From assembly GCA_022711405.1 (NCBI GenBank), contig JAKLFC010000002.1, forward strand, positions 124,001-188,000: a DNA stretch of 64,000 bases, given 5' to 3'. This document shows, piece after piece, positions 1,457 through 64,000 of this stretch. This DNA is from Bacteroidota bacterium. Lineage in GTDB: Bacteria; Bacteroidota; Bacteroidia; Bacteroidales; JAGONC01. The notes under the pieces were generated by a model. The model made no database searches. It had not been told where the DNA came from and saw only the letters and a list, made by a program, of their open reading frames with translations. The position numbers and the translations under genes were made by a program. Each line of letters starts with the position of its first letter. The stretch's first letter is position 1.

Positions 1457-4129
1457 ATGAAAGAACGCCGCCAGCTTGCCGCCATCATGTTCACCGACGT
1501 TGTCGGGTATTCCGCCCTGATGTCAAGGGACGAAAATAGGGCGATGGAGATTCTGGGGAAGAACAGGGAGCGCCATAAATCGGCCATTGCAACGTTCAAC
1601 GGTGAATACATCAAAGAGATCGGCGATGGGACACTGGCCATCTTTCCCAGCGCCTGGGATGCGGTAAGCTGTGCCCTGGAGCTCCAACGAACAGTACTGA
1701 CAGAAGGCACTTACCGTTTGAGGATCGGGATCCATATTGGGGATGTGGTTACTGAGGAAAATGATGTTTTTGGCGATGCCGTGAATATCGCTGCCCGGAT
1801 CCAGGGAATCTGTGACCCGGGCAAAGTGTTCATATCCGCCCGGATCCTTGAAGACATCAAGAACAAGCTGGAAACGGAAGCAGCCTACATCGGCGAGAAA
1901 TCACTGAAAAACATCGATCACCCGGTGGAGATCTATGCCATCTCCACTTCAGGTAAAAAGCTTCCAGCGGAAGATCAGTTAACCAGGGCCAGGGGGAAAA
2001 AGGAACATTTTGTTTATACGAAAAGAAGCAGGCTTAACAGAATCACAAAAGGCATTCTGTTCGTGCTGGCAGGACTGATATTAACTGCCCTGATGATTCT
2101 CCTCTTCCGTCCCACACTGCTGAGTGCATTCAATAAGGCCGGATCGACCCCAATCGCTGTGATCAGTTTCGAGAACCAGACAGGCGATTCATCGTTTAAT
2201 TTCCTGCAGAAAGCCATCCCCAACCTGCTGATCACCAATCTTGAACAGTCCAGGTTGTTCCAGGTGGTCACCTGGGAGCGCATGAAGGATGTGATGGCTC
2301 AATTGGGTAAAAAGGATGTGGAAAACATTGATGCCAACCTGGGATTTGAGATATGCAGCAAAGAAGGCTGCCAGGTCATTGTCACAGGCAGCTTCGTCAG
2401 GGCGGGAGATGTGTTTGTGACCGACGTCAAGGTGCTGGACGTGGCTTCGAAAAAGATCCTGAAAAGTGCAAGTTCCAAAGGGAGCGGCGTGGGCAGCATC
2501 CTTGACAGCCAGATCGATGAGCTGAGCAAAGCCATTGCCCGCGGAGCAGGCATTTCAGCGCTTAAAGTGGAAACTGCCCCCATGCGGATACAGGATGTTA
2601 CCACCACTTCAATGGAAGCGTATGATTATTATTTAAAAGGTCTTGATGCATATGATGATTATTATTGGGACGAATCCAGTCAACTGTTTGAAAAAGCCAT
2701 CAGGATCGATCCGGGCTTTGCCAGTGCTTATTTTTATCTGTACGCGTCTTACAATGGGCTTGATAACAGGGAAAAAGCCCTGGAAGCACTTGAAAAAGCC
2801 TACCAGGCTTCTTCTAAGGCCACGGAAAACGAACAGCTGCTAATCCGGGCCTTCTATACGAGTAATATTCAGAAAGACAAGCAGAAGGCATTCGGCTTTA
2901 TGCTGGAACTGGCTGAAAAAGCACCACGGGATAAAAGAGTACACTTTTATCTGGGAAGGTGGTATTTAAGCGATCACCGCCGGGATGACGCGATAGAACA
3001 GTTCATGAAGGCAGTTGAGCTTGATCCGGAATGGGGGGAAGCCCTTAATCAACTTGCTTATCTTTATTTCGCCAGAGGTGACTTTTCCACGGCAATGGAA
3101 TACCTGAAGAAATATGCCGCTCTGAATCCCGATGACGCCAGTCCTTTTGATTCCATGGGAGACATGTACTTCGCCATGGGAAAGCTCGATGAAGCCATGG
3201 AGCAATTCAAACAGGCAGTGAAAATAAAGCCTGGCTTTTACTGTACAACGGAAAAAATAGCCTATATCTATGCCTTGAAAGAAGATTACCCCCGGGCTGA
3301 CCAATGGCTTGAAAAGGCACTGAAAGATGTTCCGTCAGAAGGTTTAAAGGCCTATCTGTACTATACCATTGCTTTCATGGACTATCATTTTGGTAAATTG
3401 GACAGGGCAATGCAATCCCTCGACAAATGTATCGCTCTGGGAACCAGTCAGAAGGTGAGGAATATCAATCTGGATGCCGACGACCTGAAAGCCAGCATTT
3501 ATTTCGACCTTGGACAATATGAGGAAGCAGAGAGACTCAGCCTGGCCAATCTGAATTATATACTGGGATTGGATACTGCCTACTGGGCGGAGTCGTATAA
3601 AGGGTATTATATTTTTAGCGGTTTGATACAGATCAGGAAGCACCAGATGGATTCTGCCTGGAATAATATCCAGCGGGTCAAAGCATACTCAACGGATCTG
3701 GCAAAGGATGCGGATTATAATTACCTCTTAAGGGAATTTCAAATAGCGTCAGCTCAAAAAGCGGCAGACCTCGATAGTCTCACTCCGGAAATAGCCCGGT
3801 CTTTCTCAACTTTTTACTTTCCCTGGTATCTGACCAAGAGCCTCCCTTTCAGGTCCAATAGCCTTGCAGAAGCCTACCATCGGTTTGGCATGCTGGATAA
3901 AGCAATTATGGAATATGAACGCCTGATCACATTCGACCCTGACAGAAAAAATCAGTGCCTGGTCAATCCCCGGTATCACTACTACCTGGGGATCCTGTAC
4001 CAGGAAAGAGGAATGAAGGAAAAGGCCGTCGAACAGTTCCGCACCTTCCTCGGCCTCTGGCAGGACGCCGATCCAGGATTCCCTGAACCGGCTGATACAA
4101 GAAAAAGGCTGAAGCAACTTTTTAAATGA
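1457..4129 (+). CDS. Membrane class III adenylate cyclase with FlgO/CsgG-like domain and TPRs (copy 1)
   Basis: 890 aa. Residues 1-165 form a class III cyclase domain: metal aspartates D14 (MFTDVVGYS) and D57 (IGDGT), purine-selecting K53 and D103, and transition-state residues N110 and R114 (VNIAAR). The Lys/Asp pair predicts ATP, hence cAMP, as in adenylate cyclases. One membrane segment lies at about 198-218. Residues about 228-370 resemble the alpha/beta fold of TolB-N/FlgO/CsgG-type domains, and from about 385 to the end there are TPRs. The single helix puts the cyclase in the cytoplasm and the FlgO/TPR part in the periplasm, which suggests a receptor cyclase. The ligand is unknown. The gene overlaps the next, near-identical gene by 4 bp (ATGA), implying co-transcription and translational coupling. 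Confidence 0.85.
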   Translation: MKERRQLAAIMFTDVVGYSALMSRDENRAMEILGKNRERHKSAIATFNGEYIKEIGDGTLAIFPSAWDAVSCALELQRTVLTEGTYRLRIGIHIGDVVTEENDVFGDAVNIAARIQGICDPGKVFISARILEDIKNKLETEAAYIGEKSLKNIDHPVEIYAISTSGKKLPAEDQLTRARGKKEHFVYTKRSRLNRITKGILFVLAGLILTALMILLFRPTLLSAFNKAGSTPIAVISFENQTGDSSFNFLQKAIPNLLITNLEQSRLFQVVTWERMKDVMAQLGKKDVENIDANLGFEICSKEGCQVIVTGSFVRAGDVFVTDVKVLDVASKKILKSASSKGSGVGSILDSQIDELSKAIARGAGISALKVETAPMRIQDVTTTSMEAYDYYLKGLDAYDDYYWDESSQLFEKAIRIDPGFASAYFYLYASYNGLDNREKALEALEKAYQASSKATENEQLLIRAFYTSNIQKDKQKAFGFMLELAEKAPRDKRVHFYLGRWYLSDHRRDDAIEQFMKAVELDPEWGEALNQLAYLYFARGDFSTAMEYLKKYAALNPDDASPFDSMGDMYFAMGKLDEAMEQFKQAVKIKPGFYCTTEKIAYIYALKEDYPRADQWLEKALKDVPSEGLKAYLYYTIAFMDYHFGKLDRAMQSLDKCIALGTSQKVRNINLDADDLKASIYFDLGQYEEAERLSLANLNYILGLDTAYWAESYKGYYIFSGLIQIRKHQMDSAWNNIQRVKAYSTDLAKDADYNYLLREFQIASAQKAADLDSLTPEIARSFSTFYFPWYLTKSLPFRSNSLAEAYHRFGMLDKAIMEYERLITFDPDRKNQCLVNPRYHYYLGILYQERGMKEKAVEQFRTFLGLWQDADPGFPEPADTRKRLKQLFK

Positions 4130-6792
4130 AAGAAAACCGCAAACTCGCCGCCATTATGTTCACCGACGTTGTCGGGTATTCCGCCCTGATGTCAAGGGAC
4201 GAAAAGTTTGCGTTGATCATCCTTGAGAAAAACCGGGCGCTGCACAAAGACCGGATCAGCCAATACAACGGGGAATACATCAAAGAGATCGGCGATGGGA
4301 CGCTGGCCATCTTTCCCAGCGCCTGGGATGCGGTAAGCTGTGCCCTGGAGCTCCAGAATACTGTCATTAAAGCGGACACCTACCGGCTTAGGATCGGGAT
4401 CCATATTGGTGATGTGGTTGCTGAGGAAAATGATGTTTTTGGCGATGCCGTGAATATCGCTGCCCGGATCCAGGGAATCTGTGACCCGGGCAAAGTGTTC
4501 ATATCCGCCCGGATCCTTGAAGACATCAAGAACAAGCTGGAAACGGAAGCAACCTATATCGGCGAGAAATCACTGAAAAACATCGATCACCCGGTGGAGA
4601 TCTATGCCATTTCCACGACAGAGAAAAAGCTTTCAGCATTAGATCAACTGAAGAGGACCAGAGGAAAAAAGGAACATTTTATTTATACCAAAAGGAGCAG
4701 GCTTAACAGGATTACAAAAGGCATTCTGTTCGTGCTGGCAGGACTGGTATTAACTGCCCTGATGATTCTCCTCTTCCGTCCTACACTGCTGAGTGCATTC
4801 AATAAGGCCGGATCGACCCCTATCGCCGTGATCAGTTTCGAGAACCAGACAGGCGATTCATCGTTTAATTTCCTGCAGAAAGCCATCCCTAACCTGCTGA
4901 TCACCAACCTTGAACAGTCCAGGTTGTTCCAGGTGGTCACCTGGGAGCGCATGAAGGATGTGATGGCTCAATTGGGTAAAAAGGATGTAGAGAACATTGA
5001 TGCGAACCTGGGATTTGAGATATGCAACAAAGAAGGTTGCCAGGTGATCGTTACCGGGAGCTTCGTCAGGGCGGGGGATGTATTTGTAACTGACGTGAAA
5101 GTACTCGACGTAGCTTCGAAAAAGATTCTGAAAAGTGCAACTTCCAAAGGGAACGGCGTGGGCAGCATCCTTGACACGCAGATCGATGAGCTGAGCAAAG
5201 CCATCGCCCGCGGTGCGGGCATTTCAGCCCTTAAAGTGGAAACCGCTCCCATGCGGATACAGGATGTGACTACCACTTCAATGGAAGCGTATGATTACTA
5301 CCTGAAAGGACTTGACCAATGGAGCAATGCGAACTGGGAGGATGGACGGCAATTCTTTGAAAAAGCCGTAAAGATCGATCCGGGATTTGCCATGGCTTAT
5401 TTTTACCTGTATGGCTGTTATGCCGGGCTCCAAAATGTTCAAAAAAGCATTGTAGCTCTGGAAAAAGCCTACCAGGCTTCTTCCAGAGCTACGGAGAATG
5501 AACAGCTCCTCATCGGTGCCTGGTATGCAGGTAACATCCTGAAAGATAAGCAAAAAAACCTTGACCTCCTGCTTGAACTGGTTGAAAAAGCACCGAAAGA
5601 CAAAGGGGCACACTTTCTACTTGGACTCTGGTACTCGTACAATGGGAAGAAGGATAAAGCGATCTCTGAGTTTCAGAAAGTACTGGAACTCGATCCGGGC
5701 TATGGAGCAGCCCTTAACCAGCTTGGTTATTTTTTTGCTGCGAAAGGCGATATGGTAAAAGCGATGGAATACATGGAAAGGTATGCCGGTCTTAATCCCG
5801 GTGATGCCAATCCATTCGATTCCATGGGAGATCTGTACTATTTCAGGGATCAGTTTGATGAGGCGCTGGTAAAATATAAAAAGGCATGGGAAATAAAGCC
5901 GGGTTTTATCTATACAGCAGAAAAAATAGCCTATATCTATGCCCGGATGGAAGACTACCTCCAGGCAGAACAATGGATGAAAAATGCACTGAAAGAGGTC
6001 CTTTCGGAAAGCACGAAGGCCTATATGTATCTCTCCATCGCCATGATGGACTATCATTTTGGGAAACTGGACCACGCCCAACAATCCCTTCATCAGTATA
6101 TCGTTACCGGGACCAGCCAGGATCTGCCGCGCGTTCGTTCTGATTCTGCTTGGCTGATGGCCTGGATTCAGTACGACCTCGGGCACTATGCGGAGGCAAA
6201 GCGATGCAACCTGGCCGCTGTCCAGAAAGCACCGGATGATACCTCCTCGCATGAACATAAAGAGTATTACAAGGGATACCATTTTTTAAGTGGTTTGATC
6301 CATATCAGGGAGGGCCGGATGGATTCTGTCCTGATGAATATCGATAGGGTCAAATCGTATGCAACCAACCTGACAAGGGACTTTGAATATCATTACCTCC
6401 TGAGGGAATTTCAAATAGCCTCCGCTGAAAAACCAGCAGACCTGGACAATATCCCTCCGGATACGGTTCGCCCCCGTGTAAATTATGAATTCCCGGAGTA
6501 TCTCACAGCCAACCTTCCCTTTCAACGCAACAGCCTGGCAGTTACGTACCAGAAATATGGTTTGACGGACATAGCCATTGCCGAATATGAACGAATGATC
6601 ACTCCTGTTCCCGGAAGCAAAGACCGCCGCCTTGTCAATCCAAGGTATCACTATTACCTGGGGATCCTTTACCAGGAAAAAGGGATGAAAGAAAAAGCGG
6701 CTGAACAGTTCCGCACTTTCCTCGACCTGTGGCAGGATGCTGATTCGGGATTCCCTGAACCGGCTGACGCAAGACGGAGGATAAAAGAATAG
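4126..6792 (+). CDS. Membrane class III adenylate cyclase with FlgO/CsgG-like domain and TPRs (copy 2)
   Basis: 888 aa, a tandem duplicate of the preceding gene; its ATG overlaps the upstream stop as ATGA. All cyclase active-site residues are kept (FTDVVGYS, IKEIGDGT, DVFGDAVNIAAR), as are the membrane helix and the FlgO-like domain. Long DNA stretches in the first 1.2 kb are identical to copy 1. The copies differ in two short cyclase segments (residues about 27-48 and 80-85) and are clearly diverged throughout the TPR region after about residue 395. The pattern suggests recent duplication or gene conversion of the N-terminal part, with specialisation of the sensor/TPR part. Co-expression could allow heterodimers, since class III cyclases act as dimers. 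Confidence 0.85.
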   Translation: MKENRKLAAIMFTDVVGYSALMSRDEKFALIILEKNRALHKDRISQYNGEYIKEIGDGTLAIFPSAWDAVSCALELQNTVIKADTYRLRIGIHIGDVVAEENDVFGDAVNIAARIQGICDPGKVFISARILEDIKNKLETEATYIGEKSLKNIDHPVEIYAISTTEKKLSALDQLKRTRGKKEHFIYTKRSRLNRITKGILFVLAGLVLTALMILLFRPTLLSAFNKAGSTPIAVISFENQTGDSSFNFLQKAIPNLLITNLEQSRLFQVVTWERMKDVMAQLGKKDVENIDANLGFEICNKEGCQVIVTGSFVRAGDVFVTDVKVLDVASKKILKSATSKGNGVGSILDTQIDELSKAIARGAGISALKVETAPMRIQDVTTTSMEAYDYYLKGLDQWSNANWEDGRQFFEKAVKIDPGFAMAYFYLYGCYAGLQNVQKSIVALEKAYQASSRATENEQLLIGAWYAGNILKDKQKNLDLLLELVEKAPKDKGAHFLLGLWYSYNGKKDKAISEFQKVLELDPGYGAALNQLGYFFAAKGDMVKAMEYMERYAGLNPGDANPFDSMGDLYYFRDQFDEALVKYKKAWEIKPGFIYTAEKIAYIYARMEDYLQAEQWMKNALKEVLSESTKAYMYLSIAMMDYHFGKLDHAQQSLHQYIVTGTSQDLPRVRSDSAWLMAWIQYDLGHYAEAKRCNLAAVQKAPDDTSSHEHKEYYKGYHFLSGLIHIREGRMDSVLMNIDRVKSYATNLTRDFEYHYLLREFQIASAEKPADLDNIPPDTVRPRVNYEFPEYLTANLPFQRNSLAVTYQKYGLTDIAIAEYERMITPVPGSKDRRLVNPRYHYYLGILYQEKGMKEKAAEQFRTFLDLWQDADSGFPEPADARRRIKE

Positions 6793-22478: not shown

Positions 22479-25253
22479 ATGGAATACCTCATTAAAGCAG
22501 GTTTTTCCCTCACCATATATCTGCTGGTTCTTATCTTTTCCGGACCTATTCCATCATCTGCCCAGGTTCACTATACCGATATCATCCCCGATCAGGAAAT
22601 TGAAGTTTCAATACCTTATCCCACAGACTGCAATGGTGAGCAGTACCCACTTGATATCAACGGGGACGGTGATGTGGATTTTACAGTGAATGCCAGGTGT
22701 AATTTAGGATACCCGGATACAACGATTATTTCCATTGAATCAGTAAGCTCCCTGGATTTTTTTGTGGCTGATGCCTTCGTCGACACACTGAATCTTAATG
22801 ATATCATTGATCCATCACTGCCATGGGTCACGGGTGAGATGTTGCTGTATGGACAAGAAGTATATCATGGCAATTCCTTTGGGAACTGGACCATTGATAA
22901 TGAGCATTACGTAGGTCTTAAAATCATTAAAGGATCATTAACCTACTTTGGCTGGCTGAGAATGATGATTACCGATCCACCCGTTGGTTGTGGCTACATA
23001 AAAGGAGCTGTTATGAAGGATTTCGCATGTAATCCTCAACCTGGTGAACCGTTATTTGCCGGAGAAGGGCTTCTGAACTTCGCACTGAATATCCAGGTTA
23101 CAGACGTGGGTGACCAGAAGAATGGTGCTGATATGAAAGTGAGCTTCGATCCTGCATACATTGAAGCAGGACTCGTAAGATACAGGATCATGGTGGTCAA
23201 CGCCACACAGGCGGGAACCTTCACTTTGGATTCAGCCAATGCAGTCACAGCCGATCATTATTCAAGCATCACTGCTGACGGTACTTCGCATTCTTTACAA
23301 CTTGCTTCCACCGCCACATCCACCGATGGACAGCTCATCACCAATAGGATCGGTTATTCGGTCTTTATCCTTAGTTGCTATGAGAATACGTCAGAAAATG
23401 TCCTTTCCTACCCGGTTCCCTTCCTGCTTCAAACCCAGACCCAGGCAGTCACAAGCGTCCTGGGTACCGACAGCGGCAATGCGGGAAATGGAAGTGATGT
23501 GAAGGTCTCCTTTAACAAAATTCCCAATGAAGACGGTATATCGGAATACAGGATCATGGTGGTACCCGGGGAACAGGGAGAGATCTTCAATCTTGACATG
23601 GCTGACCTTGTTGGACAGGCCAATTATACTGCCATCGAACCTTCCGGTACTGACATCAGTGCTCTTTTAGATCCTGAGGCGACCGATATCAACGGGGATA
23701 CCATCATGGAGGAAAAAAGCTATTATATCTATGTGCTGAGCGTTGCTGATGGAATCCTTGCAGACAAAAATGCTCTTTCTGCACCTTCCAATGTGCTGAT
23801 TCTCTCTGTTCCTGATTATTTGTATGCCGGCCAGAGGGATATGTCATGTATCCATTATGTTGATATTGAACCTGATACAGTCGTCTGGGCTTCATACGGG
23901 GAGCCATCAAATACCAGGTACAGGCTTGATCTTAATGGCGATGGCACAAATGATTACCTCTTCACTTGCTATGATGGTGGTTCAATTGGATATTGGGAGA
24001 GCGGTTCAGGGCTCGAGGGATTAAATCAAAACAATAAAATAATTACAACAGGGAGTTCACTGTGGATCAAAAAATTTAACCACGGGGATCCCCTCACTTT
24101 TATGGACGGTGAAAGATCGGAAGATTGTCTTTTAAGCAGGTTTGCCCAGGGAGAGATGAGTGGCCCATCCATCTCCGGCTATTGGAACGGAGCAAAAAAT
24201 AAATATGCCGGTCTGATTATGTTCCATGGAAATGATACCATTATGGCCTGGGTAAAAATGACCGTCGGAGGGTACTGTTATGTTACCATTAAAGAATATG
24301 CCTGGATGGTTTATTGCCATCAAACGGTTGCTGATTTTACGTATGAGAAGGATGAATATGAGGTTCATTTTGCTCAAACTTCAAAAATGGTAGATTCATT
24401 GATCTGGAACTTTGGTGATGGAAGCTTTTCCACTGAAGCAAATCCGGTTCATGTTTTTTCTCAGGAAGGGGATTTCCTGGTCACACTGATCGCTTCGGGA
24501 CCTTTTGGAACCGATACGGCTGCTCAGCTTATCAATATCTGCGAAATGCCGACCGCCAGCTTCTGGTTCAACTTATCCAGGTGGGGGGAACTGATCCTGT
24601 ACAATGAATCGCTAAAAGCAGATACCTATTACTGGAACTTTGGTGACGGGAACGTTTCAAATGAAGAAACTCCTGAATATACCTATACGGAGAACGGAAC
24701 ATACAAGCTCTCGCTGATAACCGCACGGGGAAGCTGTAGGGATACATTAAAGGCAAATGTGATTGTTTGCATCTATCCAAAAGTGGACTTCTATTTTGAG
24801 GAACTGGATTCGACAGTACATTTTCATAGCACCAGCCTTTTTTTAGACTCCATATACTGGGATTTTGGGGATGGATTCGGGTCATTTCTCACCGACCCGG
24901 TTCATACATTCAATCAAAGTCAGCAGTTCCAGATCACTCTTCATGGATGGAATGCCTGCGGCCATGATTCCATCACTAAAATGGTCCTTTCGATGGAGGA
25001 ATTCCTGAGCGTTCCCTTCATTTACCCAAATCCGGTCAGAGATCAATTGTATATAAAACCTCCCTTCCCCGTTAAGAAAACCACAGCTCATTTATATGAT
25101 CCATCCGGACAACCGATCTCTCTTCAATATTCACTGACACATGGCAATGAAACTACGATCCTGGATCTGTCGGGTATCAAGGAAGGTATATACCTGCTGG
25201 AAATTCTTCTGGATGACCGGATCGTCAGGGAAAAAATCATCGTCATAAGGTAG
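22479..25253 (+). CDS. T9SS-secreted multidomain protein with FnIII-like repeats, YAGQ module and three PKD domains
   Basis: 924 aa. Signal peptide 1-28 (ending SSAQ). First beta domain about 30-205 with its own calcium-type motif DINGDGDVDF. Two related beta-sandwich repeats follow (about 205-315 and 318-440; both contain RYRIMVV or EYRIMVV and a conserved NGxDVKVSF), then the YAGQ module (about 445-610; DLNGDGTNDYLF, GLIMFHGNDTIMAW). Three PKD domains come next, each with the core WNFGDG or WDFGDG, and a T9SS sorting domain (YPNPVRDQL ... GIYLLEILLDDRIVREKIIVIR). Probably a surface adhesin or structural protein; no catalytic motif is seen. It belongs to a four-gene family cluster on the same strand. 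Confidence 0.82.
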   Translation: MEYLIKAGFSLTIYLLVLIFSGPIPSSAQVHYTDIIPDQEIEVSIPYPTDCNGEQYPLDINGDGDVDFTVNARCNLGYPDTTIISIESVSSLDFFVADAFVDTLNLNDIIDPSLPWVTGEMLLYGQEVYHGNSFGNWTIDNEHYVGLKIIKGSLTYFGWLRMMITDPPVGCGYIKGAVMKDFACNPQPGEPLFAGEGLLNFALNIQVTDVGDQKNGADMKVSFDPAYIEAGLVRYRIMVVNATQAGTFTLDSANAVTADHYSSITADGTSHSLQLASTATSTDGQLITNRIGYSVFILSCYENTSENVLSYPVPFLLQTQTQAVTSVLGTDSGNAGNGSDVKVSFNKIPNEDGISEYRIMVVPGEQGEIFNLDMADLVGQANYTAIEPSGTDISALLDPEATDINGDTIMEEKSYYIYVLSVADGILADKNALSAPSNVLILSVPDYLYAGQRDMSCIHYVDIEPDTVVWASYGEPSNTRYRLDLNGDGTNDYLFTCYDGGSIGYWESGSGLEGLNQNNKIITTGSSLWIKKFNHGDPLTFMDGERSEDCLLSRFAQGEMSGPSISGYWNGAKNKYAGLIMFHGNDTIMAWVKMTVGGYCYVTIKEYAWMVYCHQTVADFTYEKDEYEVHFAQTSKMVDSLIWNFGDGSFSTEANPVHVFSQEGDFLVTLIASGPFGTDTAAQLINICEMPTASFWFNLSRWGELILYNESLKADTYYWNFGDGNVSNEETPEYTYTENGTYKLSLITARGSCRDTLKANVIVCIYPKVDFYFEELDSTVHFHSTSLFLDSIYWDFGDGFGSFLTDPVHTFNQSQQFQITLHGWNACGHDSITKMVLSMEEFLSVPFIYPNPVRDQLYIKPPFPVKKTTAHLYDPSGQPISLQYSLTHGNETTILDLSGIKEGIYLLEILLDDRIVREKIIVIR

Positions 25254-25317
25254 TCCGGGCATAAACGACTCTTATACAAGTATCCTCCCTGTATTGAAAA
25301 CAAGAACCACAGATATA

Positions 25318-28300
25318 ATGAACATAATTAAAGCGGGTATTCCGGCCTTCTGTCTTTTTATATGGATATGTCCTGTCATTTCGTTATCCCAGGTACCGGT
25401 AATAAAATGGGCCCATATGTATGGGGGGACCAGGAATGATTTTTTAACTGTTGGTCAGCCTGTAACGGGGGGAGGAACTGTTCTGGCCGGTTCCTCAGAA
25501 TCTAAAAATGGATTTGTTATCAATAACAATGGCCAGTTTGACTTCTGGATAGTGAAGATGGACAGGGAAGGTGAGATTATCTGGACGAAATGCTTCGGGG
25601 GATCTGCCAGGGAAAACGTCTCAGATATCAGACTGACTTCGGATCATGGGTATATCGTTGCCGGGACCACCAATTCCAATGATGGCTTGGTTTCAGGGAA
25701 TCACGGGCTTTCAGACATCTGGGTGATCAAACTCGATGACACAGGGGAACTGGTCTGGCAAAAATGCCTGGGAGGAAGCAATAACGACACGGCAAATTCT
25801 ATCCGGGAAACGGAAGATCATGGATACATCGTTGCAGGAAACACAGCCTCGAATGATGGCGATATCTCCTCCGGCAATCATGGAGGAAAAGATTACTGGA
25901 TAGTGAAACTTGATTCGGTTGGTAATATATTATGGGATAGATGCTATGGAGGCTCGGGCCATGAATCAGCTTCATGCATTGAAATCACATCCGGGGCGGA
26001 ATATGTCATTTCCGGCTCTTCGGCTTCTACTGACGGAGATGTAACCGGTAACCACGGTGGATCGGATTACTGGATCATCAACATTGATTCGACGGGTAAC
26101 CTGATATGGCAAAAATCACTGGGCGGCACCCGGAATGACAACGCCGATTATGTCATTACCACCAGTGCGGGTAACTTTTTGATATCCGGCACAACCTATT
26201 CAAACAACGGGAATGTGACAGGAAATCATGGAGGCTCTGATGTATGGCTTGTCAATCTGAATGACCAGGGGGGTATCAACTGGTCGAAGTGCTATGGCGG
26301 CGATGAAAATGAAATACGGTTCACCCTTCAATCCCTACCGGATGAGAATATCCTTGCAACCGGTACAACGCTATCAAACCACTCAGGAGACGTGACAGGA
26401 GGAGATTATTACAGCTATCCGCAAGAAGACTACTGGATCTTTACGATTACAGAGAATGGAACCCTTCAGTGGCAAAAACGGTTAGGGAGTGAGACCAGCT
26501 ATATGACTTTCTACTATGAACATGGTTATTTTTCTGTAGTGGATGAAGAAGGGAATTTCCAGGTCATAGGAACCAAAAAACAGGTCATTACCCTGAACGT
26601 TTATGGGGAGGTGGAGGGTTGGATCGTAAAACTGGGTCCTGCCAGCCAGGAAAGTGTATATGATGTAAAACAACTGATTGTTGACGATATCGGAGACAAC
26701 CACAATGGTTCTGATCTGCAGGTGTCATTCCTGCAGCCGGATAGTCAGAATGTCGTTGAAGAATACAGGATCATGGTGAGAGAATATGACTATTACTGGC
26801 AGTTCAACCTTGACTCGGCGCTGGCTGTACTGCCTCAGGATTATACGTCGGTCATTCCCGGAGATTCAATGTATACAGTCGGGCTCAGTGAAAATTCCAC
26901 CACGGTTTCCGGTTCACTCATTGCTAACCAGGTACCTTATAAAATTTTCATTTTGAGTATGTTAAAAAACGGGATGACTCCTTTTCTTTCTCCTCCTTCA
27001 GACAGGATTGTACTCAGCACCCCTTGTGAATCTATGCCGGAAATTTCCGCCATGGATGAAAAAGATTTCTGCAATGGCAAAGACATTCATCTGACTTTCC
27101 AAAAGATCCCGGATGAATCCACCGTTGCGGAATACAGATTCATGATCGTACCAACATCAGCAAAAGGATATTTTGACCAGGTGCTTGCAGAGCTGATACC
27201 ACCGGGCAATTATCAAGCCGTTGCTCCACAGGGAACAGATGCTGACCTCTGGCTGGATGAAAATACAAGGGATGTTTACGGAGTTCCCGTTACATGCGGT
27301 GTCCCCTACCTGACTTACATCCTTACGATGCCCGATGGATTAAATGCGGATATGAGCAGTCTTTCCTGCGGCAATGTCCTGATCCTGGAAACACCGGGAT
27401 ATCTTACAGCCGGACAACCAGAAGATTATCACGTGCATTACAGGGATCTTGCACCTGATATTGAACTTTCTACCCCGGTGGAAGGATATCAGGAATACGC
27501 TCTGGATGTAAATAATGATGGGACCGATGATTTTATCATTTATTGTCAGAATTGGCAGAGCGAAATGGGCCCTATCCTCAGGAGCCAGATCAAAGGTCTG
27601 GGCAGTAACGTAATTTTAAAGATTCAGGAATCACAGGATTGGATTGAAAAACCTGGCCCTGATGACCCCATTGACCTGATCAGACCCTGCATCACGGATG
27701 GGATCCTTTCTAAACTTACCTATACTACAAGTTGGGAGGAGAATATTCTGGGTGTATGGAATGATGGCAAAGATCACTATGCAGGATTGATCTTTTATGC
27801 TGATGAAGATACACTTACCGGCTGGGTTAGATTAAATGTTTCTGATTATTCGCGGGTGATCATAAAAGATTATGCGTGGAAAAAATATTCACGATCTGTT
27901 CAATCTATATTTACGTACCAATGGAATGGGATGACGCTCCATTTTTTCAACCATTCACTGGCAGCGAATGAAATTATATGGGATTTTGGAGATGGCAATG
28001 ATTCTGACCAAAATAATCCCTCCCATACATACTCTGATGAAGGCGAATATATGGTTTCGCTGACTGTATCCGGATTACTGGGTATGGATTCATCGGCGCA
28101 GGTTGTGAATGTCTGCCTGCCTCCCGAAGCAGGCTTTATTTATGCTTTTAACGAATCAGCTCAGGTTGTCTTCAGCAATACATCTTCCAACGCATCCTCT
28201 TTCTTCTGGGATCTCGGTGATGGAAATGTTTCATTTCAGCAGGATCTGACCTACACCTATTCAGCGTATGGTGAATATCAGGTAATGCTGATCGCCTCCA

Positions 28301-28620
28301 ATAATTGCAGTGCTGATACAGCCTGGCAGATCATCCAGGTCACCGGATTCGCTGAAAAACCAGATGAAAGATCCGTCATCTTGTTCCCGAATCCGGCCAG
28401 GGATGTCCTTACCATCATTTTCAACGACCAGGTGTATCAAAAAGCATTACTGGAAATTTTGGACTCCATGGGAAAGCAGGTGCTCCCAGCCATGGAAAAA
28501 GAAATCCATGCCGGTTCCAGAATGGATATGAATATCGCTCCGTTGCCTGAAGGTATGTATTTCCTGAAATTCATCCTCGATGATCGGGTCATCACCCGGA
28601 AGATGATCATTATGCGATAG
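25318..28620 (+). CDS. T9SS-secreted protein with seven propeller-type repeats, YAGQ module and PKD domains
   Basis: 1100 aa from the ATG at 25318; an in-frame TTG at 25294 would add 8 residues. A signal peptide is present. Residues about 35-450 hold seven repeats of about 58 aa of the form GG(S/T)xxDxAxxI ... DHGYIVAGxTxSNDGDVSGNHGG (consensus partly quoted) ... DYWIVKLDxxGNIxWQKC, suggesting a seven-bladed beta-propeller. Next come two fibronectin-like repeats (EYRIMV, EYRFMIV), one YAGQ-type module (YLTAGQPEDYHVHY, DVNNDGTDDFIIYC), two PKD domains (WDFGDG, WDLGDG) and a T9SS sorting domain ending KMIIMR. Surface or extracellular; the binding partner is unknown. Confidence 0.8.
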   Translation: MNIIKAGIPAFCLFIWICPVISLSQVPVIKWAHMYGGTRNDFLTVGQPVTGGGTVLAGSSESKNGFVINNNGQFDFWIVKMDREGEIIWTKCFGGSARENVSDIRLTSDHGYIVAGTTNSNDGLVSGNHGLSDIWVIKLDDTGELVWQKCLGGSNNDTANSIRETEDHGYIVAGNTASNDGDISSGNHGGKDYWIVKLDSVGNILWDRCYGGSGHESASCIEITSGAEYVISGSSASTDGDVTGNHGGSDYWIINIDSTGNLIWQKSLGGTRNDNADYVITTSAGNFLISGTTYSNNGNVTGNHGGSDVWLVNLNDQGGINWSKCYGGDENEIRFTLQSLPDENILATGTTLSNHSGDVTGGDYYSYPQEDYWIFTITENGTLQWQKRLGSETSYMTFYYEHGYFSVVDEEGNFQVIGTKKQVITLNVYGEVEGWIVKLGPASQESVYDVKQLIVDDIGDNHNGSDLQVSFLQPDSQNVVEEYRIMVREYDYYWQFNLDSALAVLPQDYTSVIPGDSMYTVGLSENSTTVSGSLIANQVPYKIFILSMLKNGMTPFLSPPSDRIVLSTPCESMPEISAMDEKDFCNGKDIHLTFQKIPDESTVAEYRFMIVPTSAKGYFDQVLAELIPPGNYQAVAPQGTDADLWLDENTRDVYGVPVTCGVPYLTYILTMPDGLNADMSSLSCGNVLILETPGYLTAGQPEDYHVHYRDLAPDIELSTPVEGYQEYALDVNNDGTDDFIIYCQNWQSEMGPILRSQIKGLGSNVILKIQESQDWIEKPGPDDPIDLIRPCITDGILSKLTYTTSWEENILGVWNDGKDHYAGLIFYADEDTLTGWVRLNVSDYSRVIIKDYAWKKYSRSVQSIFTYQWNGMTLHFFNHSLAANEIIWDFGDGNDSDQNNPSHTYSDEGEYMVSLTVSGLLGMDSSAQVVNVCLPPEAGFIYAFNESAQVVFSNTSSNASSFFWDLGDGNVSFQQDLTYTYSAYGEYQVMLIASNNCSADTAWQIIQVTGFAEKPDERSVILFPNPARDVLTIIFNDQVYQKALLEILDSMGKQVLPAMEKEIHAGSRMDMNIAPLPEGMYFLKFILDDRVITRKMIIMR

Positions 28621-28622
28621 CT

Positions 28623-28716
28623 TCATCCACCCCACCCCTTGCCCCTCCCAGATCCCCGTTTAAACGGGGACCAATTGGGGAGGGGTTGGGGAGGGGCCGA
28701 CCGCCGACTGCCGACC
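28623..28716. repeat. R3 G/C palindrome with R4 tail
   Basis: The copy contains the perfect palindrome CCCCGTTTAAACGGGG and the outer CCCCTCCC/GGGGAGGGG arms, followed by CCGACCGCCGACTGCCGACC heptamers. The four-run G motif is at 28677-28696. It starts directly after the stop of the upstream T9SS gene. Confidence 0.85.
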
Positions 28717-28762
28717 AATGAACAATTCCCTCCCATCCGGCGTTTCTTACCCGGATATTGCC

Positions 28763-28770
28763 TAATTTTG
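28763..28770 (+). promoter_or_regulatory. Predicted -7 element, possible leaderless start
   Basis: TAATTTTG, a perfect TAnnTTTG match, only 5 bp before the ATG at 28776. If transcription starts at the usual distance, the mRNA would begin at or next to the start codon. Confidence 0.4.
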
Positions 28771-28775
28771 AATTC

Positions 28776-30674
28776 ATGAATTTCAGATTTTTGTGGATAA
28801 AACTGATCATCCTGGCGGGAATGTTACCGTTCAATCTTCTTTCCCAGGTGGATGCCGTTACAGGATTGCTGGCCACTGATTGCGGGAACCAGGGCAATGC
28901 AGGGGATATTTGCGTGGCTTTCAATAAAGCAGCGAATGAAGACACGATTTCTGAATACAGGATCATGGTGATCCCGGGTGAAATGCTCAGCACCTTCACT
29001 GTTGAGATCGCCAGCCTGATCCATCACTACACAGAGGTGACTCCTTCCGGATCCGATGTGTCCATCCGTATTGAGCAGCAGGCTCCCGATGTCAATGGCA
29101 ATCCGGTTGTGGAAGAGATTGAATATTACGTGTTTGCGCTCAGCGTGGCAGAAGATACATCCTCAGGACAGAATGCCCTCTCCGAACCCTCCAACCTCCT
29201 GATCCTGTCCACGCCGGACTATTTATATGCAGGACGAGCCGATGTTCCCCCACTGCATTACTCGGATCCGGAGCCGGATATCCTGATCCACGCGGAATGG
29301 GACAGCAGCCAGGAGTATTTCCTGGACCTGAACGGGGATGGCCTGGATGATTACCGGTTCTATTGCTATTTCAGCGGCGCGATGGCATCCTACACCCGTA
29401 TCGCTTCCATTTCGGGTACTGCACCCGATAACCGGATCATCTCATCCCAGCCGCTCTCCAATTTTCTGGTCAACAGATTCAACCAGGGCGATCCCCTGAC
29501 TTTTAACGATACCCTGGTATCCGAACAAAGCTTTTTAAGCCATTATGTATATAACGACGAGCAGCCTGATTTTACAGAAGGGTACTGGACAGGGATTGAA
29601 GATAAATATGCCGGACTGGTCATGTTCAATGGTACCGATACCCTCGTCGGATGGATCAAATTGAGCGTTCCTGATTATTCCACGATACAGATAAAGGAAT
29701 ATGCCTGGACGGTCTACAGCCATCATACATATGCAGCCTTTACTTATGAGATCAATGACTACGAGGTCAGTTTTACGAGTTTGGCGGAAGGGGAAAGTTT
29801 TGTCTACTGGGATTTTGGAGATGGCACATTTTCATGGGAAAGAAATCCCATTCACCTATATACACAGGAAAAGGACTACATGGTCCTGCATACTGCATAT
29901 AGCCTATCAGGATCGTTCATGGCCTCGGAGACAATCAACATCTGTGAAATGCCCACCGCCGGCTTTATCTATGAACTGACGAAATGGGGCCAACTGATCA
30001 TCCTTGACCAATCCAGCAAGGCAATCAAGTATCGCTGGGACTTCGGTGACGGTACTTCTTCTACCGAAGCGTCTCCGGAACATTATTACCAGGAGGATGG
30101 CACCTATCCTGTTTCACTGCTGGTGACCAGAGGGGAATGTACCGATTCTGACAGTACAGTGGTGGACGTCTGCATCTATCCGAAAGCAGAATTTTACTAC
30201 GAAATCAATGGCATTGAAATCTACTTTTACAATACCAGTCTCAAAGCAGATTCTTTATCCTGGGATTTCAGGGATGGCTCCGGATCAAACGAATCCAATC
30301 CGGTACATTCTTTTAACGTGACAGGCGAATACGACGTTGTGCTGCGGACATTTAACCAGTGCGGACAGGATTCTGTGACCCATATGGTGTATGTGGGTCT
30401 GGAAGAAACGGATAAGGATATCCGCGTGATGGTCTATCCTATACCTGCCAGTAATCGTTTATTTATTGAACCCATCTTTCCGGTGAACATACGAAAAACA
30501 GAGTTGTTTGATCCTTCTGGTCATTTGATTGTGTCAATAATGGATGAAAAGACCGGATACGGGATATCGGAATTTGACCTTTCTACCGTTAAAAACGGTT
30601 TTTATATACTTAAGCTTCATCTTGACCATAAGCTGCTTATACAGAAAATCCTTGTTCTGAATCGAAGGAATTAA
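28776..30674 (+). CDS. T9SS-secreted protein with FnIII-like repeat, YAGQ module and PKD domains
   Basis: 632 aa from the ATG at 28776 (MNFRFLWIKLIILAG); the signal peptide ends near LLSQ. One fibronectin-like repeat (about 27-145; EYRIMVIPGE) is very like the second repeat of the 22479 gene. The YAGQ-type module (about 148-310) has YLYAGRAD, LHYSDPEPD, DLNGDGLDDYRFYC and GLVMFNGTDTLVGW. Three PKD domains have the cores WDFGDG, WDFGDG and a degenerate WDFRDG. The T9SS sorting domain is VYPIPASNRLF ... GFYILKLHLDHKLLIQKILVL. It is the last member of the four-gene T9SS family cluster and a probable surface protein of unknown function. Confidence 0.82.
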   Translation: MNFRFLWIKLIILAGMLPFNLLSQVDAVTGLLATDCGNQGNAGDICVAFNKAANEDTISEYRIMVIPGEMLSTFTVEIASLIHHYTEVTPSGSDVSIRIEQQAPDVNGNPVVEEIEYYVFALSVAEDTSSGQNALSEPSNLLILSTPDYLYAGRADVPPLHYSDPEPDILIHAEWDSSQEYFLDLNGDGLDDYRFYCYFSGAMASYTRIASISGTAPDNRIISSQPLSNFLVNRFNQGDPLTFNDTLVSEQSFLSHYVYNDEQPDFTEGYWTGIEDKYAGLVMFNGTDTLVGWIKLSVPDYSTIQIKEYAWTVYSHHTYAAFTYEINDYEVSFTSLAEGESFVYWDFGDGTFSWERNPIHLYTQEKDYMVLHTAYSLSGSFMASETINICEMPTAGFIYELTKWGQLIILDQSSKAIKYRWDFGDGTSSTEASPEHYYQEDGTYPVSLLVTRGECTDSDSTVVDVCIYPKAEFYYEINGIEIYFYNTSLKADSLSWDFRDGSGSNESNPVHSFNVTGEYDVVLRTFNQCGQDSVTHMVYVGLEETDKDIRVMVYPIPASNRLFIEPIFPVNIRKTELFDPSGHLIVSIMDEKTGYGISEFDLSTVKNGFYILKLHLDHKLLIQKILVLNRRN

Positions 30675-60312: not shown

Positions 60313-62661
60313 TCAGAACCAGTACCCCACCTCCACTTTCCACCATCTCCCCTCCTGCGGGTAAGGAAACACCGTACTTCCACCCTGTGTGGAGGAAGTG
60401 CCAAAAAGATTGTAAATGCGTGCATCCAGCGAAAAATCCCGGAGTTTCTCCACCCGGACGCCTACATTCACCAGAAAGACATCATCCACGTCATTGCCGG
60501 GATCATTGAAAGGCTGGCCATTCAGGTAAGTATTCGTGACAGGGGAAAGCTGCGATCCGATATACCGCAGCGTCATATTGAACCACAGGTTCCTGAAGTG
60601 TCTGTACACAGGATTGAAATCGAGGAGAAGGTTTGCCTGCCACTGGGGCACGTCGTGGATCCGGCTGCCTGTCACCCCGTAATCTTCAGCGTCAAGCGCA
60701 TACTGCCAGGTGACGTTGGCATGAATGCGCAGCGGATCAAGGGCATATTTCACGCTGCCTTCCAGTCCGACCGACTCCAGGCTGCCGGCGTTACGGTAGC
60801 GCGGCTCATCGCCGGTGGCCTCCGGATCCCGGTATATAAAATCCTTCAGGTGATTGTAAAACATATTCCCCTCCAGTTCCATTTTACTATCCATTGCACT
60901 GAGATCAGCAGTGAGCTGCAGTGATGTAAGATGCTCCGGCAAGAGGTTCTCCGAGCCCTTGTAACTCGGAAGCGAATTGTATCGGTACCAGTACGGGGCG
61001 TCGACGAACGACCTGGCGAAGGATGCCTTCAGGGCGAAGGTTTCCGCAGGCAGGTAAATGACGGATAGGCGGGGACTGAAATTGGTCACCTCATTTCCTT
61101 TGTGCCGTTGTTTGTAATCATAGCGACCGCCCATGTTCAGGATGAACTTCTTGCCCAACCATTGCTTCACCTGGACAAAACCGGAATAGATCGTCTCATA
61201 ACCCCTCTCAAGAACGGGTTCGGCGTTGGAGTCAACCACGGTATCCACTTCTCCGTCATCCCCGATAAGGTAATTACTATCATAAAGATCCATCCCGTCG
61301 AGCTGAAAACCAGCAAGAAGATTTCCTTTACCAACGGACTTCAGGGTATAATCCTTCCTCACCTGCAAGGTGCCCCCGTAACTGTACTCATTCCAGCTCA
61401 CCCTGCCTGCCCTGCCAAGGGAAGGATCACTCACGATGATGACACTGATGTTGTTCAGGTCAAGATCGATATTGCCCATGATCTCCCAGCCGCCTTTCAT
61501 GCTTCTGTCGTACTTCACCTCGCTGTGGGCTGATCCGGAACCCAGACCAGGGCCGGCTCCGTTGAAGGTCCGGTACTCATCATAATCGTAGGTTTCTCCC
61601 GTGAGCCCCCCGCCCGAAAAAGGCTCCACCAGCTTGGCATACCTTACATTTCCCATGATGGACAGGTAGTCCGAATGAAAAGAGAAGCCGGCATCATAGG
61701 CGGGCTTATCCTTGAAAGCACCCACATGGGCGTACCCATCCACCGGATGTGGAGAATGATCTTCCTCAGCAGGCACATATACCTCTTCCCCTTCCGACCG
61801 GTAATAATTACCCCAGACCACCAGACCGTTCTTACGGTCGAACTGCTTTCCATACAGCAGAGAGGCTTTCATCTGCCCGTAATTCCCCATGCCTGCAGAA
61901 AAAGAGCACCCGTCCACATCCTGGCCGCTTTTGGAGATGATGTTGATCACGGAAGTCAACGCCACGTTGCCATACAGGGAGGATGCCGGCCCGCGCAGCA
62001 CCTCGATTTGTTTGATCTTTTCCAGCGAGATGCTGAAGTCGGGATTGGCCTCAGAGTAAGCACGGGAATTGAGCCGGTGACCGTCGAGCATGACGAGTAT
62101 CTTCTGCTGGGATGAGCCATATACCCCCCGCATGGCAATGTTCAGCTCATTCTGGTCCTCCACGGCGGTCATGCCAGGTACATAAAAGGCAAGCAATTCC
62201 TTCAGGTCGCGCGCTCCGCTGAAAAGGATCATCTCTCCGGTGATCACCGTGACGGGAACAGGGGATTCCTTGAGGGATTCCACCTGTTTGGAGGCGGTCA
62301 CCAGACTGGTGACAGGCTTCCGTATCGTCTCCACGATCTGTACGTAACGGGGTGGATCAAATAATACATTTGGAGTGTAAAAAGGATCCAGCCTGAGGAT
62401 CTCTTCGATCATGGACCTGGACGTGACGGGGTCATCCTTGGCCATGTAGGATAAAGCCAGCAGCCGGTAAGCCTGTTTCTTTTCTTCATCGGAAAATCCA
62501 CTTTTCAGGCATGGCTCGATCAGACTGATCAACTCTTCAAAACGGCCAGTCTCATAATATTCCTGACCCCCCTCCAGCGTCATCTGTCCGCAACCGGTTT
62601 GCGACCTTAGCATCAGCGGCACGGATAATACAATACCTATGAGCAGTAAGGATGCCCTCAT
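60313..62661 (-). CDS. TonB-dependent outer-membrane receptor with N-terminal TPR-like region
   Basis: 782 aa from the ATG at 62661 (MRASLLLIGIVLSVPLML), which begins the signal peptide; an in-frame ATG 90 bp upstream is less likely. Residues about 25-115 look like a TPR-type helical region (GGQEYYETGRFEELISLIEPCL, partly quoted; AYRLLALSYMAKDDPVTSRSMIEEIL, partly quoted) in place of the usual carboxypeptidase-like domain. The plug follows (about 130-260; VTVITGEMILFSGARDLKELL, partly quoted; IEVLRGPASSLYGNVALTSVINI, partly quoted) and then a 22-strand type barrel ending VEVGYWF with terminal Phe. It resembles siderophore, cobalamin or metal receptors rather than SusC; the ligand is unknown. 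Divergent from the sulfatase-like gene. Confidence 0.88.
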   Translation of the reverse strand: MRASLLLIGIVLSVPLMLRSQTGCGQMTLEGGQEYYETGRFEELISLIEPCLKSGFSDEEKKQAYRLLALSYMAKDDPVTSRSMIEEILRLDPFYTPNVLFDPPRYVQIVETIRKPVTSLVTASKQVESLKESPVPVTVITGEMILFSGARDLKELLAFYVPGMTAVEDQNELNIAMRGVYGSSQQKILVMLDGHRLNSRAYSEANPDFSISLEKIKQIEVLRGPASSLYGNVALTSVINIISKSGQDVDGCSFSAGMGNYGQMKASLLYGKQFDRKNGLVVWGNYYRSEGEEVYVPAEEDHSPHPVDGYAHVGAFKDKPAYDAGFSFHSDYLSIMGNVRYAKLVEPFSGGGLTGETYDYDEYRTFNGAGPGLGSGSAHSEVKYDRSMKGGWEIMGNIDLDLNNISVIIVSDPSLGRAGRVSWNEYSYGGTLQVRKDYTLKSVGKGNLLAGFQLDGMDLYDSNYLIGDDGEVDTVVDSNAEPVLERGYETIYSGFVQVKQWLGKKFILNMGGRYDYKQRHKGNEVTNFSPRLSVIYLPAETFALKASFARSFVDAPYWYRYNSLPSYKGSENLLPEHLTSLQLTADLSAMDSKMELEGNMFYNHLKDFIYRDPEATGDEPRYRNAGSLESVGLEGSVKYALDPLRIHANVTWQYALDAEDYGVTGSRIHDVPQWQANLLLDFNPVYRHFRNLWFNMTLRYIGSQLSPVTNTYLNGQPFNDPGNDVDDVFLVNVGVRVEKLRDFSLDARIYNLFGTSSTQGGSTVFPYPQEGRWWKVEVGYWF

Positions 62662-62693
62662 GGAGTAAAAAATTCCCCCGTGATTTGAATAGT

Positions 62694-62701
62694 TAAAGAT
62701 A
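62694..62701 (-). promoter_or_regulatory. Predicted -7 element of the TonB receptor gene
   Basis: TATCTTTA on the minus strand, 32 bp before the start codon at 62661. No TTG partner at the usual distance. Confidence 0.35.
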
Positions 62702-62723
62702 TGAAATTCATCTGTCCTGTTCT

Positions 62724-62731
62724 TATCTTTG
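62724..62731 (+). promoter_or_regulatory. Predicted -7 element of the sulfatase-like gene
   Basis: TATCTTTG, a perfect TAnnTTTG match, 30 bp before the ATG at 62762. Confidence 0.45.
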
Positions 62732-62761
62732 TCCAGGATAAATTTTTCCATTCTTTATTTA

Positions 62762-64000
62762 ATGATCATGATATACCGGACAAGGATTAAAATAATTTTT
62801 CTGCTCTGGATGTTCCTGGCAGCATTCAGTGCGATACCCCAACCTGCCGGTACAGGGATCCTGCCCAACATCATCCATATCCTGGCTGATGATATAGGCT
62901 ACGACGATATCGGTTGTTACGGGGCCAAAGATATCCAGACACCCTATCTTGATCAGCTCGCATCAGAAGGCGCACGTTTTACGGGCTTTTATGCCCCGCA
63001 CGGTTCAGGAGCAGCCACCAGGGCCGCCATCCTTACGGGAAGGTATGCACCGCGGCTGAACAATGGAAAAGGCTTGCCCATGCTCACGCCGGATTCACAG
63101 ACCGGTTTGAATCCGGCATCGGAAATCACCATTGCACAGCTTCTGAGATCAAAAGGATATACAACCGGGATCATCGGATCCTGGCAGCTTGGTCATCGCA
63201 CCAGGTTCCTCCCTGTGAACCACGGCTTCGATCATTTCCTCGGGATACCCTATTCCCATGACCTGGGACCCGAGCGGGCGGCTGGCACCGGCTCACTGGA
63301 ATATCCTGAAATTCCTCTCATCAGGGATACATTGACCACTGAGCATTGCAACCTTCAGGATCTGGCAGGATTGCCAGCCCTTTTCCGTCGGGAAGCCTGC
63401 CGTTTCATACGGGATGCCGTCAGGGAGAACAAACCGTTTTACCTGTACTATTCCCCCATCGAAACTCATATTCCCTGGTTCGTGCCACCGGGATTTGAAG
63501 GGGAAAGCACAGCAGGGCCCTACGGCGATGCCGTTGGATTTCTTGATCAAACAGTGGGAGCTATTCTGGCTACCTTAAAGGAGCTGGGCATCGAACAAAC
63601 GACACTCGTGGTCTTTTCATCCGCCAACGGACCCCAGACCGTCCGGAATAAAGAGCTGGAGGCCTGTTACGGCAACTTTGCACGAGTGGATACCAGCCGT
63701 ACACGCTCTTTCAGGGGAGGAAGGGACCAATCGAGGTACGAAGGCGGTATGCGGATCCCGTGCATTGTCAGCTGGCCCGGTACCATCCCAGGTAATACGA
63801 CCATTGGTGCGATCGCTTCCGGACTGGATCTCCTTCCGACATGGGCTGCTGCTGCAGGGGTGTCATTACCCGCCGGGAGGATCCTTGATGGAAAGGATCT
63901 GCTGCCACTGATGACTGGAAGGCAAAAAGAACCGTTACATCTGCTGTATTTCGGATTTGAGCCGGATGGGATGCTCATGAGCATCAGGTACAAAAACTGG
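62762..64000 (+). CDS. Sulfatase-fold protein lacking the catalytic residues (pseudosulfatase), 5' part
   Basis: 413 codons, open to the window edge; the ATG at 62768 is an alternative start. A signal peptide ends near residue 26. The fold is clearly arylsulfatase: IIHILADDIGYDDIGCYGA (37-55), ILTGRYAPR, GYTTGIIGSWQLGH, ETHIPW, YEGGMRIPCIVSWPG. The active site is not kept. The formylglycine motif CxPSR is GAATR, so Cys/Ser is G83; the KWHLG motif is SWQLG, losing Lys and His; the SDNGP metal motif is SANGP, losing an Asp; the basic residue of the late GGK motif is Arg (RGGRDQ). The metal pair D43-D44 and H236 remain. It is likely inactive as a sulfatase and may bind a ligand or do something else. 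Confidence 0.85.
   Translation, partial: MIMIYRTRIKIIFLLWMFLAAFSAIPQPAGTGILPNIIHILADDIGYDDIGCYGAKDIQTPYLDQLASEGARFTGFYAPHGSGAATRAAILTGRYAPRLNNGKGLPMLTPDSQTGLNPASEITIAQLLRSKGYTTGIIGSWQLGHRTRFLPVNHGFDHFLGIPYSHDLGPERAAGTGSLEYPEIPLIRDTLTTEHCNLQDLAGLPALFRREACRFIRDAVRENKPFYLYYSPIETHIPWFVPPGFEGESTAGPYGDAVGFLDQTVGAILATLKELGIEQTTLVVFSSANGPQTVRNKELEACYGNFARVDTSRTRSFRGGRDQSRYEGGMRIPCIVSWPGTIPGNTTIGAIASGLDLLPTWAAAAGVSLPAGRILDGKDLLPLMTGRQKEPLHLLYFGFEPDGMLMSIRYKNW

Follow-up and report, generated by a model that had tools for sequence, protein, structure and literature searches.

The gene at the end of the window (the whole 64,000-nucleotide stretch of Bacteroidota contig JAKLFC010000002.1 analyzed here) quite likely encodes a secreted pseudoenzyme of the sulfatase fold, a former sulfatase that is now non-catalytic and whose likeliest use is in binding or scaffolding, away from the former sulfate and calcium site. 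Its closest intact relatives read, from their sequences, as Ser-type formylglycine sulfatases. All members of its clade lack the nucleophile and the catalytic Lys and His in the alignment. Erosion of the metal ligands and remaining pocket residues differs from species to species, while the scaffold has stayed under strong purifying selection. Because the nucleophile is missing, sulfate ester hydrolysis would be impossible for this protein under the established mechanism.

The pseudo-sulfatase gene occupies positions 62762-64207 (+), with its ATG at 62762, and encodes 481 amino acids and a stop. The initial annotation described an intact frame of 413 codons to the window end and allowed for a frameshift or stop just past it. 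The 413 codons are open from the ATG, and neither defect is present in the contig beyond, where 68 more open codons are followed by the stop at 64207. The gene and its N-terminal region are placed as follows:

62762-64000, + strand: pseudo-sulfatase gene within the window, its last 207 bases being contig C12:188001-188207 (PF00884, SGSH_C, and AlphaFold2 model)
62762-62860, + strand: probable type I signal peptide and linker, residues 1-33 (sequence reading and AlphaFold2 model)

Pfam matches are to Sulfatase (PF00884, E 9.6e-48, across the full length) and SGSH_C (E 1e-9), both over the cut-off. At the N-terminus, the AlphaFold2 model has a helix at residues 2-23 and then a low-confidence stretch. 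As read from the sequence, residues 1-33 probably hold a type I signal peptide and have no lipobox Cys. The model, built from an input of 53 relatives, has a mean pLDDT of 93.3 and a pTM of 0.91, and it is predicted to contain both the N-terminal catalytic-type domain and the C-terminal subdomain of the S1 fold. Human arylsulfatase A (ARSA) is the best PDB sequence match, and the closest solved sequences are ARSA, GALNS, STS, and S1_15/S1_19. Alignment of the model to human ARSA with VIA-align gives a Z of 48, with 414 residues aligned at 2.3 A and 38% identity. The earlier statement that the sulfatase structure is kept is thus borne out by a full arylsulfatase-A-like fold in the model (pLDDT 93, Z 48). 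Like human ARSA and other S1 sulfatases, the protein has the complete two-domain fold. Unlike them, it has no Cys or Ser for formylglycine, no catalytic Lys or His, and no Asp of DNG.

Positional orthologues are found in two other species of the genus, a Bacteroidales MAG (G002, JAQUQD010000008.1; 75% identity) and a Lentimicrobiaceae MAG (G001, JAGONC010000003.1; 64% identity), both with open frames. A tree of 101 relatives groups the three orthologues as a clade (SH-aLRT 100). Sequencing or assembly error as the cause of the losses is ruled out, as the same losses are present in three independent assemblies.

The Cys or Ser of the CxPSR motif is the formylglycine precursor in S1 sulfatases. 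In the window copy, this motif reads PHGSGAATR, GKWHLG reads GSWQLG, and SDNGP reads SSANGP; the initial readings of GAATR, SWQLG, and SANGP are exact. The active-site positions are:

62888-62893, + strand: D43-D44 (ARSA D29-D30, calcium ligands), present here, AG in the G001 orthologue
63008-63022, + strand: residues 83-87, GAATR replacing CxPSR, with Arg87 kept
63179-63193, + strand: residues 140-144, SWQLG replacing KWHLG
63467-63469, + strand: His236 (ARSA H229), present here, Gln in the G001 orthologue
63623-63628, + strand: residues 288-289, AN replacing DN, with GN and DC in the orthologues
63722-63724, + strand: Arg321, replacing ARSA Lys302

In ARSA numbering, the changes in the window copy are C69 to Gly, K123 to Ser, H125 to Gln, D281 to Ala, and K302 to Arg (GGRD), and the residues unchanged are D29, D30, R73, S150, H229, and N282. 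All three orthologues have Gly at the position where S1 sulfatases carry the Cys or Ser nucleophile (3/3), within a common GxA[ST]R. They also share [SN]WQLG, in which the catalytic Lys and His of GKWH have become Ser or Asn (Lys123 is Ser, Ser, and Asn) and Gln (His125). The calcium site is incomplete in each, with DD and AN in the window copy, DD and GN in G002, and AG and DC in G001. D281 is lost in the window copy (Ala) and in G002 (Gly), both of which retain DD and N282. The G001 orthologue keeps D281 and has the further losses D29 to Ala, D30 to Gly, H229 to Gln, N282 to Cys, and S150 to Ala; it has lost most calcium ligands. The monophyletic clade proposed in the initial annotation is therefore recovered for GxA[ST]R and [SN]WQLG, but SANGP is no clade signature (SANG, SGNG, and SDCG). 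Likewise, several catalytic residues are gone from an intact gene as described, but their loss looks stepwise rather than coordinated in one event. On the simplest reading of the alignment, the loss of the nucleophile, Lys, and His would be shared, and the metal site would then have eroded independently.

A clade-profile scan of the genome contigs returned only the two orthologues and four distant relatives, three with canonical CxPSR (L042, L043, and L044) and one with CTPAR (L045). Searches at the family, order, class, and phylum levels found no further clade member, and the clade is known from three species. Among the viral contigs searched, there was one distant match only. A second frame of the sulfatase fold, L036 (G096:C47:10586-12097; L184:2557-4122), has also lost its active site but is only distantly related. 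It has Asp at the nucleophile position, Leu for Arg, Gln for Lys, ND for DD, and Gln for His, and its nearest relative, L030, looks intact.

Purifying selection, suggested as a check in the initial annotation, is evident across the three orthologue pairs. The dN/dS values (NG86, partly YN00) are 0.12, 0.09, and 0.12 by NG86; only the dS of the closest pair (1.25) is firm, as the other two pairs approach saturation. For comparison, neighboring genes have values of 0.05-0.19, and a pair of intact sulfatases (L130/L133) has 0.07. Intact orthologues with a common loss and a dN/dS well below 1 are what is expected of a retained pseudoenzyme. In a neutral simulation run without indels, 1.2% of copies kept an open frame after 0.1 substitutions per site, whereas 0/500 did so after 0.3 or 0.6. 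The altered positions are also not spread evenly. Among 50 active-like relatives, 71 columns show a conservation of 90% or more. One or more of the three orthologues departs from it at 8 of the 9 columns with a catalytic or metal role, versus 8 of the 62 others (Fisher p = 9.7e-6). With the catalytic columns selectively altered and dN/dS low, selection preserves the scaffold but specifically not the chemistry.

The gene lies beside a divergent TonB-dependent receptor, and a promoter-like box had been noted upstream of it:

62724-62731, + strand: TATCTTTG, a Bacteroidetes -7-type promoter box, 30 bases upstream of the ATG (three-species comparison)
60313-62751, - strand: TonB-dependent receptor, divergent, neighbor in all three species

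The TATCTTTG box is identical in all three species, and the bases around it diverge, although the window as a whole shows no enrichment of the motif (23 occurrences vs 28 expected). Gene order in all three species is SurA, TonB receptor, pseudo-sulfatase, and Usp. The Usp gene (L039:12273-13127), downstream of the pseudo-sulfatase, carries a TATnTTTG box of its own. In G001 and G002, the pseudo-sulfatase and Usp sit between the TonB receptor and a thioesterase. A sister genus (G004) has PBP, RodA, SurA, TonB receptor, and thioesterase in that order, with neither pseudo-sulfatase nor Usp. Because G004 lacks both genes at this place, a joint arrival is possible. The difference could reflect either their insertion on the genus stem or their loss in G004. 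If inserted, the pseudo-sulfatase gene would have come with Usp between the TonB receptor and thioesterase genes, and the sulfatase would have been converted to a pseudoenzyme on the stem of the genus. Elsewhere in the window, two adjacent and very similar frames of ~890 amino acids (1457-4129 and 4126-6792) form a tandem duplication, each apparently with a nucleotide-cyclase domain ahead of TPR repeats. A run of three large secreted proteins (22479-30674) carries PKD-like repeats, and their similar C-termini resemble type IX secretion signals.

The closest relatives of the clade are L130 and L133, two paralogues with 47% identity to the pseudo-sulfatase, encoded in a genome (G714) from a different family of Bacteroidales, which are sister to it with a support of 100 in the tree of 101 relatives. 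They belong to the same subfamily as the pseudo-sulfatase and have many subfamily-specific residues in common with it. Unlike the pseudo-sulfatase, they have every catalytic and metal residue present (Ser nucleophile, KWH, DNG, and Lys). L130 adjoins other sulfatases and apparent glycoside hydrolases (enzymes named by eye), and its neighborhood is a glycan-utilization cluster.

It is possible, though less likely, that the pseudo-sulfatase is lectin-like and has kept the inherited cleft as a binding site for sulfated or similar glycans, perhaps supplying the adjacent TonB receptor. The placement of the intact homologue in a glycan-utilization cluster is in keeping with this, as are the two sulfate contacts present in 3/3 orthologues, Arg87 and Lys/Arg321. 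However, each species has lost different sulfate and calcium ligands. There are 48 subfamily-specific residues common to the clade and the intact homologues, and several are beside the catalytic motifs (N100, G102, G104, E171, R172, E234, T235, W239, D310, T311, R313, Q323, and R325), but retention near the old active site (14/43) is not preferential over retention far from it (34/124; p = 0.56, by sequence distance only). The divergent TonB receptor does adjoin the gene, but it is not of the SusC type, and the sister genus has the receptor without the pseudo-sulfatase. Binding of sulfated glycans at the old site, as put forward in the initial annotation, is thus not supported, because the ligands erode differently and the nearby residues are not preferentially retained. 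The more general proposal of a retained non-catalytic role stands, given catalytic loss in an intact gene under selection.

The other initial suggestion, a different hydrolytic chemistry, is disfavored. A new nucleophile could be Ser82 beside the old position, a new residue that, like His80, is invariant in the clade. Enzymes of the sulfatase superfamily need their metal-binding residues, and since these ligands have been lost to a differing degree in each species, the old pocket is very unlikely to have gained a new chemistry.

The chance that the gene is a decaying copy heading for loss is similarly slim. It does evolve somewhat faster than its neighbors (closest-pair dN of 0.15 vs 0.05-0.13), and its pocket residues are still changing. 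However, it is intact in three species at dS > 1 with a dN/dS of ~0.1 and a kept promoter box. The initial annotation had raised the case of a lone decaying copy whose close homologues keep CxPSR. The closest homologues also lack CxPSR, and the gene is not such a copy because two other species carry positional orthologues.

The genomes of the three species differ in their other sulfatases. The window genome encodes further sulfatases (Ser-type) whose motifs look intact and an anSME, the sulfatase-activating radical-SAM enzyme, over the curated cut-off. One contig of this genome (G000:C31:15119-55650) holds a Ser-type sulfatase and, besides an intact anSME, a fragment resembling one, and no counterparts to these sulfatase and anSME genes were found over the cut-off in G001 and G002. 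Neither an anSME match over the cut-off nor another S1-type sulfatase was found in these two assemblies, which are 99% complete, and the sole other PF00884 match is an LtaS-like protein. Matches to PF03781 (FGE-sulfatase) do not demonstrate a formylglycine-generating enzyme; of the three examined, L099 is confidently named as GldK, and L102 and L103 match only EgtB/SenA-like models, below the cut-off. Within the bounds set by 99% completeness, the G001 and G002 proteins therefore have no sister S1-type sulfatase to serve. A regulator or decoy for an active sulfatase or maturation enzyme of the same cell, for which the window genome has candidates in its Ser-type sulfatases and anSME, is therefore very unlikely, since neither was found over the cut-off in two of the three species.

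A non-catalytic job remains the likeliest one for the pseudo-sulfatase because the gene is intact in three species and under purifying selection, and two of them are without another S1-type sulfatase or anSME. The sulfatase scaffold would then act in a binding or scaffold role away from the old sulfate and calcium site. A more specific account, in which a sulfatase acquired by the ancestor of the genus became a secreted non-catalytic lectin for glycan binding or adhesion in species without sulfatase maturation, is speculative and rather doubtful.

In SulfAtlas, all 4058 aligned sequences have Cys or Ser at the nucleophile position, and inactivity is suspected in only nine S1 proteins, from Lentisphaerae and Planctomycetes, in which Arg is replaced by Ile or Leu (PMC5066984). 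Those nine are, like the pseudo-sulfatase, sulfatase-fold sequences suggested to be inactive. They lose the Arg and keep Cys or Ser, whereas the pseudo-sulfatase keeps the Arg and loses the nucleophile, Lys, His, and metal ligands. A retained pseudo-sulfatase clade was not described in a full-text literature search, whose coverage mostly excludes subscription journals. Sulfatase-fold proteins are commonly annotated as sulfatases and taken as a sign of sulfated-glycan use, and this clade warns against such counting. It also provides a natural series for the passage from enzyme to pseudoenzyme, with an intact homologue, shared ancestral losses, and later species-specific losses.
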